DNA of 43,146 bases from Fimbriimonadales bacterium (GTDB lineage: Bacteria; Armatimonadota; Fimbriimonadia; Fimbriimonadales; Fimbriimonadaceae), in NCBI GenBank assembly GCA_026418055.1, contig JAOACB010000018.1:1-43146 (forward strand), written 5' to 3'. This document shows positions 33,063 through 40,576 of this stretch, piece by piece. The translations under genes and the position numbers were made by a program. The first letter of the stretch is position 1; every line of letters starts with the position of its first letter. A model generated the notes under the pieces. It had not been told where the DNA came from. It did not search any database and saw only the letters and a program-made list of their open reading frames with translations.

Positions 33063-34772
33063 TCAGAGGCTCACGCGCAGCGTGCGGCCGTTCGCGTCGA
33101 ACTTGGCCTTGACGGTGCGACCGCCGACCGTCACCTCGTAGTCGCCGAAGAAGCCGCGGAACCGCGCCCGGCCCTGCGCGTCGGTGCGGACGGCCGCGTT
33201 GGTCCACCACCTGCGGGTGACCAGCTCGTCCCAAACCTTGGCCATCGGCTTGGGCGACCAGTCGCGCCGGTACATGGCACCGTCCGGCTTCCAGTGGGAG
33301 CCCTCCCAGAAGCCCCACATCGTGAAGCCTGCCGTCTTGGGGTGCGCGAACCAGGCGGTCAGCAGGTCTCGGGTGTAGTCGGCCTGCGCCTGCTCGTCGC
33401 GGGTGCTCACGTCGTACTCGGTGATCTCGATCGGCAGGCCGACCGACTTCTGGAAGCGGTCGATCAGCCGCCACACCCTCTCGGGCGGAGTCAAGTCCTC
33501 TCCGAAGTGCGCCTGCCAGCCAAGCATGGTCACGGGCGCGCCGGTGGATCGGAGCCGCCTGGCGATCGCCTCGGAGAGCTGCGTGGTGGGTCCGCCGGCC
33601 TGCGAACCCTCGAACACCGAATAGTCGTTGTACACCAGGTGCGCCTTGGCCCAGGCCCTGCGGGCGGCGCGGAACACGTCGACGTACAGGTTCCAGCCGA
33701 GGCGTTCGGCGAACTCGGTTTCGGTCCGCAGCTCGTTCAGCACGTCGACGTTCTCGAAGGGGTATCGGCCCAGCGTGCGGGTGCGCTCCTCGAGAGCGTC
33801 GTAGATCGCCCGGCGCAACCCCTCCCGGTCGAGCTGGCGCAGGAACTGGGGCGAGTACTGGAAGCTGGGCCACAGCAGGCAGTGCGCCTTCATGCGCAGC
33901 CCGTTCCTCTGGCACCACTCGATCGTCTCAAGGAACTCGCGCCGGCTCTGCTCTCCGGCCCAGCCCCAATCGGCCCAGTAGATCGGCACCGTGACGCGGC
34001 TGAAGCGTCGGCTGAGCAGCATCCGGCGGAACCGCTCGCTGTTCGGGTCGTTCCTGCGCGGCACGTGGTACTCCGTGAAGGTGCCGAAGGGGTACTCGTG
34101 GCGGGTCATGTCCGCTCGCACCAGCGCTCCGCGCACGGGCTTGCCGTTCCGCGTCACCAAGACCGCGAAGTCTCCCTTGCGGTGGCGCTCGATCATCGCC
34201 TCGGCCCTCTTCCGCCAGGGGGCGTTCGGCTCGCGGCCCTCGTAGGTGAGCTCGGTGTGGGGCAGCGCCTTGAGGTCGGTGGCCGCCGGAAGCAGCGTTG
34301 CCCGCAGGTCCCGGAACTCCACCTCCTGCACCCGGCCGGCCAGGTGGAACGTGATCTCGACCTCGCCGGCCTCGAAGTCCCTGTCGGAGCGGAAGGCCTG
34401 GTGGAAGCTGCGCCAAGCCTTGCCCGCGCCCCCCGACGAGGCGCCGATCTGCGTCCAAGGCTGCCGGTTGAGCTGGACCGCCATGTACCACGCGGACGTG
34501 CCGCTCTCGTCGCGGCTGGCCAGGGTGCGCGCGCGGTACTGCACGAACACCACCTCCCCGCGGCGGATCGGCCTTTGGAACGGCGCGGTCTGCAGCTGCA
34601 CCGTCCAAGCGTCGCGGTGGGTCCGGAGAACCTTGACCTTCGCCCAGTTGGAGCCGAGCGCCCCCTGGGCGTACTCGGGCACCCCGGAGAGCCTCAGGCC
34701 CAGGTTGTCGGGCAACAACGGCACTCCGGACGGCTGAGCGAGCAACAGCGTCGCGGCGGCGAGCAACGTCAT
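33063..34772 (-). CDS. Secreted GH10 endo-beta-1,4-xylanase
   Basis: The 569-residue enzyme has a signal peptide (residues 1-16), an N-terminal beta-sandwich that may bind carbohydrate (about 20-175), a GH10 catalytic barrel (about 195-505) and a short C-terminal beta domain. The acid/base is Glu347 in VDVLNELRT, and the nucleophile is Glu452 in IEITEYDV. Neighbouring conserved pieces (KAHCLLWPS, YNDYSVFEG, TMWGFWEGSHWKP) also fit GH10. It cleaves xylan outside the cell. The ABC sugar transporter on the other side of the PQQ enzyme gene could take up its products. The 19-base gap to the convergent peptidase gene holds no terminator. Confidence 0.92.
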   Translation of the reverse strand: MTLLAAATLLLAQPSGVPLLPDNLGLRLSGVPEYAQGALGSNWAKVKVLRTHRDAWTVQLQTAPFQRPIRRGEVVFVQYRARTLASRDESGTSAWYMAVQLNRQPWTQIGASSGGAGKAWRSFHQAFRSDRDFEAGEVEITFHLAGRVQEVEFRDLRATLLPAATDLKALPHTELTYEGREPNAPWRKRAEAMIERHRKGDFAVLVTRNGKPVRGALVRADMTRHEYPFGTFTEYHVPRRNDPNSERFRRMLLSRRFSRVTVPIYWADWGWAGEQSRREFLETIEWCQRNGLRMKAHCLLWPSFQYSPQFLRQLDREGLRRAIYDALEERTRTLGRYPFENVDVLNELRTETEFAERLGWNLYVDVFRAARRAWAKAHLVYNDYSVFEGSQAGGPTTQLSEAIARRLRSTGAPVTMLGWQAHFGEDLTPPERVWRLIDRFQKSVGLPIEITEYDVSTRDEQAQADYTRDLLTAWFAHPKTAGFTMWGFWEGSHWKPDGAMYRRDWSPKPMAKVWDELVTRRWWTNAAVRTDAQGRARFRGFFGDYEVTVGGRTVKAKFDANGRTLRVSL

Positions 34773-34821: not shown

Positions 34822-36318
34822 CTACCTGGCAGGAACCAGCCGAACCACCGAGTCGGGGTCGTTGAACGCGAGGTACACGAACCCGTCGGGGCCGACCACC
34901 ACGTCGCGGACGCGGGCGATGCCGTGCACGATCTCCTCCCTCTCGACCAGCTGCCCGTTGCGCACCCGGATCCGGTCCACGTTCGTGCCCGAAAGGCCTC
35001 CGGCGAGCAGGTCGCCGCGCCACTCGGGGAAAGCGTCGCCCCGCACGACGTCCAGCCCGCACGCGCCGATCGACGGCAACCAGCGGAAGACCGGCAGGAC
35101 GATGTCCTGGCCCTGCTTGGGCCAAGGCGTGCGGAACGGGGTGTCGTTGTAGTTGATCGAGAACGCCACGAGCGGCCAGCCGTAGTTGCGGCCCTTCTGG
35201 ATGAGGTTCAGCTCGTCGCCGCCTCTCGGACCGTGCTCGGTGACCCACAGGTTGCCCTCCAGGTCGAACGCCACTCCCTGGGCGTTGCGGTGCCCGTAGC
35301 TCCACACCGCCTGCATCTGCCCCGGCTGGCGGAACGGGTTGTCGGGCGGGATGGAGCCGTCCTCGCGCAGGCGGAAGAGCTTGCCGTTCGGCTTGGACAG
35401 GTCCTGCGCGAGGTCCTGCTGGCCTCGGTCGCCGATCGAGAAGAACAGGTGCCCCTTGCCGTCGAACACGATGCGGGAGCCGAAGTGCACCCCCGCGCCG
35501 GTGTAGGAGTCCGCAGCGGCCTCGAAGATCGTCTGCTGGCTGGTCCATCGCGGCTGGCCCGCGCGCCACTCGATCTTGCCCCGCACGATCTTGGTCATGC
35601 CGCCCCGCCTTCCCGAGGCCGGCTCGGCGTAGGCCAGGTAGACCCAGCCGTTCCTGGCGTGCTCCGGGTGCACGGCCACATCCAGCAGGCCTCCCTGGCC
35701 CAGCTCGATCACCGCGGGCGTGCCCTGCACGGTCTTCAGTTCGTCGCCGTCCTTCACCATCAGAGCGCCGGGTCGGTTCGTCACCAGCATACGGCCGTCC
35801 GACAGCCAGTCGATGGCCCAAGGCGTGCGCAGGCCCTGGCCCTCGCCGATCACGGTCTCCAGTCGGTAGCCGGCCCTCTTGGTGCGGAACACGCCGTTCT
35901 GGGCCCTGGGCGATCCGGTGCGCTCCCGCAGGGCGCGCGCCTGCAGCTCTCGGATGTGCACCACCAGGCCCCAGATCTGCTCGTCGCTCAGCGAGCCACC
36001 GAACGCCTCCATCCCCATTTCCGGCACGCCGTTCTTGATGGCGTCGAAGAACGCCCGGTCGTGCTTCTGGTCGAACTTCTCCTCGGTGAGCAGCGTGCGG
36101 GTTCCGGCGCCCCCGCCCTGGCCCCGCTCGCCGTGGCAGTGCGCGCAGTTCTCGCGGTAGAGGTTGGTGATGTTGGCGCTCTGCACGACGCTCGCCGCGG
36201 TCGCCCCCAGGGCCCGTTGCGCGGTCGAGCCTCCCGCCTGGGCCGAAGGGCCCGGAGAGGAGGAGCACATCGCGAGGAACAGCGGCAGAGCCGAGAGCCC
36301 GAGCCAAGCCTTCTTCAT
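34822..36318 (-). CDS. Cytochrome c / PQQ-dependent sugar dehydrogenase (aldose dehydrogenase-like)
   Basis: This 498-residue exported enzyme starts with a signal peptide or lipoprotein signal (Cys18). A c-type cytochrome domain follows, with heme motif CAHCH at Cys58, Cys61 and His62 and a likely Met axial ligand in VPEMGMEAFGG. From about residue 150 there is a soluble PQQ glucose/sorbosone dehydrogenase beta-propeller: GEGQGLRTPWAIDW, SIGDRGQQDLAQDLSKPNGK and TEHGPRGGDELNLIQKGRNYGWP. It oxidises sugars and passes electrons through its own heme. The ATG at 36318 is chosen over that at 36327 because the CAAAAT box is 7 bases upstream. The next gene on the other strand begins only 90 bases away. 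Confidence 0.9.
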   Translation of the reverse strand: MKKAWLGLSALPLFLAMCSSSPGPSAQAGGSTAQRALGATAASVVQSANITNLYRENCAHCHGERGQGGGAGTRTLLTEEKFDQKHDRAFFDAIKNGVPEMGMEAFGGSLSDEQIWGLVVHIRELQARALRERTGSPRAQNGVFRTKRAGYRLETVIGEGQGLRTPWAIDWLSDGRMLVTNRPGALMVKDGDELKTVQGTPAVIELGQGGLLDVAVHPEHARNGWVYLAYAEPASGRRGGMTKIVRGKIEWRAGQPRWTSQQTIFEAAADSYTGAGVHFGSRIVFDGKGHLFFSIGDRGQQDLAQDLSKPNGKLFRLREDGSIPPDNPFRQPGQMQAVWSYGHRNAQGVAFDLEGNLWVTEHGPRGGDELNLIQKGRNYGWPLVAFSINYNDTPFRTPWPKQGQDIVLPVFRWLPSIGACGLDVVRGDAFPEWRGDLLAGGLSGTNVDRIRVRNGQLVEREEIVHGIARVRDVVVGPDGFVYLAFNDPDSVVRLVPAR

Positions 36319-36325
36319 GCCGGCC

Positions 36326-36331
36326 ATTTTG
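36326..36331 (-). promoter_or_regulatory. -10 box of the PQQ dehydrogenase gene
   Basis: CAAAAT on the minus strand is 7 bases before the ATG at 36318, a leaderless-type layout. The box overlaps the ATG at 36327, which argues against that start. No clear -35 is seen. Confidence 0.4.
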
Positions 36332-36391
36332 GCCGCACTGCTTCCGGTGGGCGGGCCGTTCGGCGTTTGGCGGTCGCCTCCGGCCATGGGC

Positions 36392-36407: not shown

Positions 36408-38834
36408 ATGGTCCGATGCCGCTTCCTGTTCCCGCTCCTCGCCCTGCTGGCGCTCGCCTCCCCGGGGTCTGCGGACAGCCGACAGACGGTGACCGTGTGG
36501 GGCATGGGCCTCGGTCCCGACTCGCAGGGCCTTCAGGACGTCATCCGCGAGTTCGAGCGGCGCAACCCGCGGTACCGCGTGCGCATCCTCAGCATGGGGG
36601 CGGGAGGCATGAACCCGCAGAAGCTGATGACGGCGATCGTCGGCAAGGTACCGCCCGACGTCATCTTCCAGGACCGCTTCTCGATCTCGGACTGGGCCAG
36701 CCGAGGGGCGTTCCGACCGTTGGACGACCTGATCGCGCGGGACCGCGGCAGGGACCCCCTGACGCCCACGCCCGACCAGTACTACCCCGCCTTCTGGCAG
36801 GAAGCCTGCTACGGCGGCAGGGTGTACGGCATCCCGGCGAGCGCCGACACGCGCGCCCTCTACTGGAACAAGAGGGTGTTCCGCGAGAACGCCGCCGCGC
36901 TCCGGGCGGCGGGGCTGGATCCGAACCGCCCGCCCCGCACGTGGAGCGAGACGCTGGCCTACAGCAGGGTGCTCACGAAGTTCAACAAGGACGGGTCGCT
37001 GCGGCAGGCGGGGTTCATTCCGAACTACGGCAACAGCTGGCTGTACCTGTACGCGTTCCAGATGAACGCCAGCTTCCTGTCGCCCGACGGCCGCACCTGC
37101 ACGCTGTACTCGCCGGAGTCGGAGGCGGCGCTGCGGTTCATGGTCGAGGGCTACCGGCTGCTCGGCGGCTACGAACAGGCGCAGAAGTTCCAGTCGACGT
37201 TCCAGTCGGGCGAGAACGACCCGTTCATCGTGGGAAAGGTCGCGATGAAGATCGACGGCGACTGGATCATCCCTTGGATGGCCTTGTACGCCCCGAAGCT
37301 CGACTTCGCCACGGCCCCGCCGCCGGTTCCCGACGACCGCTTCCACCACCGGGGTCGGTTCCGCAACGAGAAGGACACGTTCATCAGCTGGGCAGGCGGC
37401 TTCGCCTACGCGATCCCCGTGGGCGCCAAGAACGTCGAGGGGGGCTGGGCGTTCATCAAGTTCATCACGAGCACCGAGGGCCGGCTGATCGAGATGCGCG
37501 GGCAGAACAGCCTCGAGCGCAAGCGCGGCCGCACCTACATGCCGCGCGTCAGCGCGCAGATCCAGGCGGGGCGCATCGGCTTCGAGACCTTCAAGCCGAG
37601 CGACCCGCGCTGGGCCGACACGATCAAGCTGCACCTGGACCTGGCGTCGGTGTCGCGCATCCGGCCGGCGACGTTCGTGGCGCAGGTGCTCTGGGACGAG
37701 CACGTGCGCGCCGTCGAGAACGCGGCCTCGGGGCGCATGACGCCCAAGGAGGCTCTTCTGGCGGGCCAGCGGGTGGTGCAGCAGGCCTTGGACGAGGAGC
37801 TGGGCAAGACGCGCTTCCCCGTCATCGACCTGCGCCTGCCGGCCGCGATCGGGGTGTTCGGGTTCCTCGTGGGCTGCGGGCTGCTGGCGGCCGCCTACCG
37901 ACGCCAGAGGCTCGGGCGCCTGGCTCGCCACGAGGCGATCGCGGCGTACCTGTTCGTCTCGCCGTGGGTCGTGGGCTTCGTGGTGTTCACGCTGGGCCCG
38001 ATGCTGGCGTCGCTGTTCTTCAGCTTCACGCAGTACGGCGTGCTGACCGAGGCCCGGTGGGTCGGGCTGAAGAACTACGTCGACCTTTTCACGCTGGACC
38101 AGCAGAACATCGTGAAGTCGTTCGCGAACGTGCTGTACCTCGGAGGCATCGGCGTGCCGCTCGGCCTGGTCACCGGGCTTGCGGTGGCGCTGCTGCTGAA
38201 CAGCGCGGTCCGAGGCATGCGCTACTACCGCACGATGTTCTATCTGCCGGCGATCGTGCCCGGGGTGGCCAGCGTGGTGCTTTGGATGTGGATCCTCAAC
38301 GCCGACCCGAACCGCGGCCTGATCAGCTTCGTGTGGGCCCGCACCATCTCGCAGTGGTTCGGCACCCAGCCGCCGGGATGGCTCACCGTGGAAGCCTGGG
38401 CCAAGCCGTCGCTGATCCTGATGGGCCTGTGGGGAGCGGGATCCGGCATGATCCTGTGGCTCGCGGGCCTCAAGGGCATCCCCAGCACGCTGTACGAGGC
38501 CGCTTCGATCGACGGCGCCAACCCGCGCCAGCAGTTCTGGGCGGTCACGCTGCCGCAGCTGAGCCCCATCGTGTTCTTCAACACGGTCATGGGGTTCATC
38601 GGGGCGCTGCAGCAGTTCGAGGGTGTGTACATCATCACCGGCGGCAACGGCACCGGCCCCGGAGACTCGCTGCTGATGCCCGTGTACCACCTGTTCAACA
38701 ACGGCTTCAAGTACTTCAAGATGGGCTACGCCAGCGCGCTGGCCTGGGTGATCTTCGCGATCATCCTCGTGCTGACCGGCATCCAGTTCCTGCTGGCCAG
38801 AAAGTGGGTGCACTACGAGGCGGGTGGGAGATGA
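36408..38834 (+). CDS. Sugar ABC transporter: solute-binding protein fused to MalF-type permease
   Basis: Two normally separate subunits are one 808-residue chain. Residues 1-22 are a signal peptide. Residues 25-465 are a family 1 sugar-binding protein (VTVWGMG start, PPDVIFQDRFSISDWA, VYGIPASADTRALYWNK, GKVAMKIDGDWIIPW, WAFIKFITSTEG). A membrane anchor at about 475-497 is followed by a basic cytoplasmic loop (YRRQRLGRLAR), and residues 510-805 are a six-helix permease with the EAA loop LYEAASIDGANPRQQFWAVTLP (about 695-716). The topology is consistent: the binding domain faces outside and the permease starts inside. The stop overlaps the next permease by ATGA. No ATPase is encoded here, so a shared MsmK-like ATPase is expected elsewhere. 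Confidence 0.93.
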   Translation: MVRCRFLFPLLALLALASPGSADSRQTVTVWGMGLGPDSQGLQDVIREFERRNPRYRVRILSMGAGGMNPQKLMTAIVGKVPPDVIFQDRFSISDWASRGAFRPLDDLIARDRGRDPLTPTPDQYYPAFWQEACYGGRVYGIPASADTRALYWNKRVFRENAAALRAAGLDPNRPPRTWSETLAYSRVLTKFNKDGSLRQAGFIPNYGNSWLYLYAFQMNASFLSPDGRTCTLYSPESEAALRFMVEGYRLLGGYEQAQKFQSTFQSGENDPFIVGKVAMKIDGDWIIPWMALYAPKLDFATAPPPVPDDRFHHRGRFRNEKDTFISWAGGFAYAIPVGAKNVEGGWAFIKFITSTEGRLIEMRGQNSLERKRGRTYMPRVSAQIQAGRIGFETFKPSDPRWADTIKLHLDLASVSRIRPATFVAQVLWDEHVRAVENAASGRMTPKEALLAGQRVVQQALDEELGKTRFPVIDLRLPAAIGVFGFLVGCGLLAAAYRRQRLGRLARHEAIAAYLFVSPWVVGFVVFTLGPMLASLFFSFTQYGVLTEARWVGLKNYVDLFTLDQQNIVKSFANVLYLGGIGVPLGLVTGLAVALLLNSAVRGMRYYRTMFYLPAIVPGVASVVLWMWILNADPNRGLISFVWARTISQWFGTQPPGWLTVEAWAKPSLILMGLWGAGSGMILWLAGLKGIPSTLYEAASIDGANPRQQFWAVTLPQLSPIVFFNTVMGFIGALQQFEGVYIITGGNGTGPGDSLLMPVYHLFNNGFKYFKMGYASALAWVIFAIILVLTGIQFLLARKWVHYEAGGR

Positions 38835-40576
38835 ACGGCGCGGTGGCCTTCCTAGTCGGGACGCTGGCGCTGTGGGCGGGATGGCTCGCCCTCGCCCGCG
38901 CGGCGCTGCTGGGGGTGCAGCTGCTGATGGCCCACGACCCGGAGAACCGCCCGGGACGGGCGAGGGGCTTGTGGCAGTCGGCCGCAGCCGGAGCGGCGCT
39001 GCTCGCCCTGGCCCAGGGGTTGCCGATCGATCCGGGCCGTCCCGTCGAACCGGCGCCGATCCGCTTGCCGCTGGCGTGGGTGCTGATGCCGTTCACCGCC
39101 TGGCTGGCGCTGACATCCGCCGCCATGGTCGTGGTGCGCGCCATCCACGCGGTTTCGGCGCTGAGCCGGCGGGAGGCGCGTCAGAGGCTGGGAGCCGCCG
39201 GAGTGTGGGCGCTGGTGGGAGCGGGCTCGTTCTGGCTGTTCCGGCGATCCGGCGACGAGGCGGTGGTGTTCCGGGGCGTGCTGCCCCTGAGCTACACGGG
39301 CGCTTTCGCGCTGGCGCTGCTGTTCGTCGCGAGCGCCGCGCTGATGGTCGCGACGGCGCGTTCGCACCGCCTGAGGGGCCTCGGCAAGGGCGTGGCCACC
39401 CACGCCGCTCTGGTGGTGGGCAGCGTGCTGTTCAGCGTGCCGTTCGTCTGGCTGCTGGTCACCAGCTTCAAGGAGAGCCGCGACATGGTGAGCGCGGATG
39501 GCATCCGGTGGGTGCCCCGCGTGTGGGTCACGGTGCCGTACGACGACCCGATCGACCCGCTGTTCGAGGTGAGGCTGGACGACGGCCGGGTCGTGCAGGC
39601 GAACATCGCCGACAGGCTCCCGAACGGGCGCGTGATCCTGGAGGTCTACCGTCCGTTCAGCCAGCAGGGCCTGCGCGTCGAGCGCTCGATGGACGAGATC
39701 CGCCGCATCCCCAAGCAGTGCCAGGTGGTGACCGCCAGGCACGAGGGCCGGCGGGTCAAGGCCTTCATCGCTCAGAACCTGATGGACGGCCGCCAGCGCC
39801 TGCGCATCCTCGAGCCGAAGGAGCTGGAGGGCCGCGAGTTCCTCGCGCAGCCGAGCGACACCGAGCCGTACATGGTGACCGGCATCCGCTGGCAGAACTA
39901 CTCCGACGCGCTGCAGTTCCTGCCGCCGGAGGCCAACTACGGCCTGACCTACCTGAAGAACACCCTGATCCTGGTGGTGATGGGCCTGATCGGCACGCTG
40001 CTCAGCTCGGCTCTGGTGGCGTACGGCTTCGCGCGCCTGCGCTGGCCTGGCAAGGGGCCTCTGTTCACGCTGATGCTCAGCACGATGATGCTGCCGGGCG
40101 CCGTCACGCTGCTGCCGTCGTTCCTGATCTTCCGGTCGCTCGGATGGATCGACACGCTCTACCCGATGTGGGTGCCGGCGTTCTTCGCCAGCGCCTTCAA
40201 CGTGTTCCTGCTGCGGCAGTTCTTCCTCAACATCCCGATGGAGCTGGAGGACGCCGCGAAGATCGACGGCTGCTCGTACCTGCGCACGTTCTGGCAGGTG
40301 ATGCTGCCCCAGGTGAAGCCCGCGCTGGCCGTCATCGCCATCTGGACCTTCATGGGAGCCTGGAACAACTTCATGGGCCCGCTGATCTACGTGTCGTCGC
40401 CCGAGAACATGCCGATCGCGTACGCGGTGCAGCTCTTCCAGAGCGACCGCGGCGGCGAGCCGGGGCTGATCATGGCGTTCGCCACCATGGCGATGCTGCC
40501 GGTGCTGCTGGTGTTCTTCCTGGCGCAGAAGTACTTCATCGAGGGCGTGCAGCTCACGGGCCTGGGCGGCCGCTAG
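38831..40576 (+). CDS. Sugar ABC transporter MalG-type permease with N-terminal membrane domain and large outer loop
   Basis: The 581-residue protein is about twice the usual MalG length. Residues 1-180 are an additional hydrophobic region with four or five predicted helices and no homology I can name. The normal permease starts at about 187. Between its first helix (190-211) and the second (372-400) lies an extracytoplasmic insertion of about 150 residues, with beta-rich, charged sequence (VRLDDGRVVQANIADRL, RPFSQQGLRVERS). The EAA loop is EDAAKIDGCSYLRTFWQVMLP (473-493). The ATG at 38831 lies in the ATGA overlap with the fusion gene. Together they form the membrane part of one sugar importer. 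Confidence 0.9.
   Translation: MNGAVAFLVGTLALWAGWLALARAALLGVQLLMAHDPENRPGRARGLWQSAAAGAALLALAQGLPIDPGRPVEPAPIRLPLAWVLMPFTAWLALTSAAMVVVRAIHAVSALSRREARQRLGAAGVWALVGAGSFWLFRRSGDEAVVFRGVLPLSYTGAFALALLFVASAALMVATARSHRLRGLGKGVATHAALVVGSVLFSVPFVWLLVTSFKESRDMVSADGIRWVPRVWVTVPYDDPIDPLFEVRLDDGRVVQANIADRLPNGRVILEVYRPFSQQGLRVERSMDEIRRIPKQCQVVTARHEGRRVKAFIAQNLMDGRQRLRILEPKELEGREFLAQPSDTEPYMVTGIRWQNYSDALQFLPPEANYGLTYLKNTLILVVMGLIGTLLSSALVAYGFARLRWPGKGPLFTLMLSTMMLPGAVTLLPSFLIFRSLGWIDTLYPMWVPAFFASAFNVFLLRQFFLNIPMELEDAAKIDGCSYLRTFWQVMLPQVKPALAVIAIWTFMGAWNNFMGPLIYVSSPENMPIAYAVQLFQSDRGGEPGLIMAFATMAMLPVLLVFFLAQKYFIEGVQLTGLGGR

Follow-up and report, generated by a model that had tools for sequence, protein, structure and literature searches.

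A sugar receptor fused to a MalF-type permease in a putative CUT1-type importer of Fimbriimonadales with an enlarged partner permease

The gene at positions 36408–38834 (+) of the analysed window, a stretch of 43,146 nucleotides from a Fimbriimonadales bacterium, encodes a genuine, intact fused receptor–permease protein. The protein is very probably the subunit that combines receptor and permease in a CUT1-type oligosaccharide ABC importer (maltose/UgpABCE-like), with a predicted topology and a putative pairing, shared ATPase, transport activity and substrate. The design is unusual yet has a precedent: the window fusion is part of a large, phylum-wide clade of an already known kind, and the novelty, if any, may sit in the enlarged MalG-type partner rather than in the fusion itself.

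Architecture and topology of the fused subunit

The gene is a single frame of 808 codons plus a stop, and its translation contains no internal stop. A signal peptide, an SBP_bac_1 domain, a membrane anchor and a MalF-type permease, which the earlier note had read from this one frame, were confirmed by Pfam, hydropathy and AlphaFold. The probable signal peptide (residues 1–23, 36408–36476 (+)) contains a hydrophobic stretch at residues 1–19; in the ortholog alignment the N-termini vary in sequence and keep this hydrophobic pattern. The solute-binding domain follows (residues 24–465, 36477–37802 (+)), with SBP_bac_1 at residues 40–358 (E 1.6e-27, above the curated cut-off). Family 1 sugar-binding proteins are the best structural matches of the fusion model, the top one being CpMnBP1 with manno-oligosaccharide (4r9f/4r9g, TM 0.81–0.84 on target); the Pfam and fold matches together give the family 1 solute-binding domain expected of a CUT1 importer.

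The linker (residues 466–475) and anchor helix (476–499) occupy 37803–37904 (+), and the MalF/UgpA-type permease core takes up residues 500–808 (37905–38831 (+)), with BPD_transp_1 at residues 586–800 (E 1.4e-13, above the curated cut-off). The nearest NCBIfam model for this part is UgpA (residues 511–803), and since the match lies well below the equivalog cut-off, it does not warrant a more specific name. As had been claimed, the EAA loop (E697-A698-A699...G703...L715-P716) is intact. A CUT1 importer has two different permeases with EAA loops, and here BPD_transp_1 is above the cut-off in both the MalF-type part and the MalG-type partner encoded by the next gene. NCBIfam matches the pair best to UgpA and UgpE, both below the equivalog cut-offs, and the EAA columns are nearly invariant in the ortholog alignments of both subunits.

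Hydropathy gives a signal-peptide helix (1–19), an extra helix (477–495) and six permease helices within residues 511–796, and the AlphaFold model (pLDDT 80.7, pTM 0.75), in which confidence is low in places within the permease part, has the same layout. In the model, a helix ending the receptor (446–465) is followed by a linker of about 10 residues, the helix 476–499 and the permease, with block pLDDT values of about 80–89 for the two helices. Five of the 15 residues in the loop after the extra helix are K or R, which suggests that this loop is cytoplasmic and the receptor outside. The consistent topology proposed earlier is thus supported by the predictions from hydropathy and the model.

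Conservation, origin and rival readings of the fusion

A protein search found a full-length, stop-free fused ortholog in 52 of the 61 sampled genomes of the same family (53–94% identity) and a full-length or nearly full-length stop-free one in 62 of the 131 genomes sampled from other Armatimonadota families (46–57%); both tallies were counted by hand. The same SBP_bac_1 plus BPD_transp_1 chain, for which a search in other genomes had been suggested, is therefore widespread. Of the nine remaining family genomes, G013, G003 and G036 have close fragments that lie at the ends of contigs or near them, and a further two belong to a genus of small genomes. By their record labels, the source organisms are mostly Armatimonadota, many of them Fimbriimonadaceae. 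Two fused loci bear odd taxonomic labels and are probably mis-binned or mislabelled; the permease of the "Actinomycetota" one is identical to that of an Armatimonadota genome. Two single loci should also be noted. Beyond the 62, one ortholog on a long contig (L069, G134:C1:2177800-2183400) has one in-frame TAG in the receptor part, which may be an error or mark a decaying copy. At L030 (7496–9977), in a record labelled as a Methanoregulaceae archaeon and probably mis-binned, a second receptor–permease frame, very divergent from the first, lies directly downstream of the ortholog operon.

The two-gene arrangement of the closest relatives outside the phylum, adjacent and in the same order, could be taken to mean that a sequencing or assembly error joined two genes in the window. 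Intact single frames nevertheless occur in over 110 other, independently assembled genomes at 46–94% identity, the anchor segment is hydrophobic in the aligned ortholog rows, and no start codon at the junction is common to all rows. A lost stop between residues 465 and 505, the kind of error that the earlier note had warned of, is rejected by the conserved stop-free frame of the orthologs and by the codon changes relative to the closest relative (94% identical), which are mostly synonymous through linker and anchor (6:1 and 13:5, synonymous:non-synonymous). The probability of such an error is vanishingly small. A separate permease could also come from a true fused frame, by cleavage of the chain after export or by an internal start. 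GTG, TTG or ATG codons do lie near residues 456–505 in individual sequences, with an ATG at 502 in several rows, but none of these candidate positions is conserved in all the aligned rows, and the linker is short and predicted by AlphaFold to be ordered; we consider this route highly unlikely.

The operon holds no ATPase, and the only match to the MalK OB domain in the whole source genome is distant, on contig C80. This would suit a sugar sensor derived from an importer subunit, were it not that both subunits have an intact EAA loop, the contact site of the ATPase, with hardly any variation among orthologs, and that one ATPase is reported to serve several CUT1 systems in Thermotoga maritima and A. 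bescii (PMC11212667). A sensor role is very improbable.

Under the preferred reading, an importer subunit, the signal peptide would direct the binding domain into the periplasm, and helix 476–499 would span the membrane from outside to inside, so that the six-helix permease would begin in the cytoplasm like an ordinary MalF or UgpA. The permease would pair with the MalG-type protein whose gene comes next and overlaps that of the fusion, and the pair would probably be powered by the single MalK-type ATPase encoded on contig C80, an enzyme probably shared among several such pairs. On the model of MalFGK2 and the fused MalE–MalF system, the tethered receptor would close on the sugar, dock on the permease pair and open upon ATP binding, never departing. 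Each complex would have exactly one tethered receptor; the earlier proposal of one receptor per transporter follows from the presence of one MalF-type subunit per complex.

Outside Armatimonadota, the closest relatives detected (mostly Bacillota) have the two parts as adjacent separate genes; our scan placed such systems in Paenibacillus, Virgibacillus, Bacillus, Spirochaetota and Thermotogaceae. Their genes are ordered receptor, MalF-type, MalG-type, and therefore the loss of one gene boundary would give the fusion. In the Paenibacillus and Virgibacillus CUT1 operons (L043–L058), which share this order, the permease is 44–48% and the receptor 28–31% identical to the window protein, whereas the genes are separate. 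Separate-gene homologues in the same order, raised earlier as an argument against the fusion, thus do exist outside the phylum, and also in other paralog clades within it, but they illustrate how the fusion could have arisen and do not refute it.

Fused and separate systems stand side by side within the phylum and within the source genome, where fused genes are found only on contigs C44 (the window copy), C39 and C86; the systems on C91, C42 and C72 are not fused, with receptor and permease in different frames on C91 and C42. A quick tree of 118 permease domains groups the window protein's orthologs into a single clade of 54 rows, with an SH-aLRT of 97. Further fused clades sit in other parts of this tree, which requires at least four label changes, and a single origin of all fused clades would be compatible with it. 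Since a CUT1 receptor locked 1:1 to its permease occurs beside separate-gene paralogs in the same genomes, tethered and free designs could be compared there.

The enlarged MalG-type partner

The MalG/UgpE-type partner (38831–40576 (+)) starts within the stop region of the fusion gene, the two overlapping by 4 bases (ATGA). Its BPD_transp_1 domain covers residues 400–570 (Pfam), and its core has the MalG fold (Z 13.8, rmsd 4.2, 236 residues aligned). The protein is 581 aa long, in contrast to the ordinary length of about 275–310 aa of partners in the Bacillota relatives, including the Paenibacillus and Virgibacillus operons, and has two additional parts.

An N-terminal membrane extension (residues ~1–190, 38831–39400 (+)) is indicated by hydropathy, the model and the ortholog alignment, and adds 3–5 helices: three strong hydropathy peaks precede MalG helix 1, and the structural model has five helices. 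It was found in most aligned orthologs. Because the number of extra helices is odd, the loop between MalG helices 1 and 2 stays periplasmic. This loop is 168 residues long and holds an all-beta insert of about 120 residues (residues ~230–349, 39518–39878 (+)), the modelled strands of which have pLDDT values of 75–88. The insert consists of two similar halves, with the repeat DGRVVQANIADRL / EGRRVKAFIAQNL.

The insert is conserved in the alignment of 30 orthologs and was detected in fused systems of Fimbriimonadaceae. A profile of it gave no match, except one weak hit, among the partners of other-family orthologs and no match in the ordinary partners of fused paralogs that were checked (e.g., L002), and therefore the insert is no requirement of the fusion. 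In E. coli it is MalF, through its P2 loop, and not MalG that reaches the receptor with a large periplasmic loop, which makes the position of the insert, in the MalG-type subunit, the less expected feature. The enlarged partner raises a specific structural question, namely what the periplasmic insert contacts. We tentatively propose, as a possibility that we favour less than its opposite, that tethering in Fimbriimonadaceae altered both subunits, the MalF-type one having taken on the receptor and the MalG-type one having gained helices and a beta insert placed where it could dock or gate the tethered receptor.

In Foldseek searches the extension and insert gave weak Tudor/Agenet matches (E 0.01–0.1), which may offer a mere hint at the fold of the insert; VIA-align covered mainly the MalG core of the partner and listed no Tudor/Agenet match. 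At two loci, L016 and L033, fusion orthologs lack a partner next door. The best partner match in the L016 genome lies far from the fusion (G196:C1:1264112-1265828) and is interrupted near residue 365, where a second frame overlaps the first by about 5 bases, through either a real split or a frameshift.

Relation to known systems and gene neighbourhood

The doubt expressed in the earlier note that a fusion of this kind exists in the CUT1 class was mistaken. In 2019, Licht et al. described a CUT1 importer in which MalE and MalF are joined (Res Microbiol 170:1–12, doi 10.1016/j.resmic.2018.08.006, as cited in PMC9045158), and the review PMC7756565 lists a natural MalE–MalF supercomplex as transport-competent. 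A receptor domain and a MalF-type permease in one chain is the defining trait of MalE–MalF fused importers, and the window protein has it. Like the window fusion, the published system is of the CUT1 class, with a single family 1 binding domain linked covalently to MalF; unlike it, it comes from another phylum and is distant in sequence, and the likeness drawn here is that of receptor and permease sharing a chain. Its host is reportedly Bdellovibrio bacteriovorus. The window receptor matched PDB 6ffl ("Maltose/maltodextrin transport permease homologue"; profile E 2.7e-18), which we take to be the binding domain of that fusion. Our literature search found no report of a fused CUT1 receptor in Armatimonadota.

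The UgpA/MalF and AlgM1/SugA permeases share with the window system the permease fold, the EAA loop and a partner permease, whereas their binding proteins (UgpB, MalE, AlgQ, LpqY) are separate, soluble or lipid-anchored. GlnPQ and OpuA also have receptor domains fused to the permease, and thus a tethered extracytoplasmic receptor (PMC8025302, PMC11065425), but they belong to the amino acid and glycine betaine classes, with receptor and permease families that differ from those of the window fusion.

No consistent neighbourhood that would name the substrate was observed across the loci. Gene clusters shared by most loci are those of the fusion, the partner and overlapping frames, to which one sub-group adds a LacI-type regulator; at one related locus, read by eye, a LacI-type regulator and an apparent alpha-amylase-type gene lie upstream. 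Within the window, a glycoside hydrolase family 10 (GH10) gene near the importer (33063–34772 (−)) is a possible substrate clue, and a divergent gene at 34822–36387 (−), encoding a cytochrome c fused to a glucose/sorbosone dehydrogenase, adjoins the importer.
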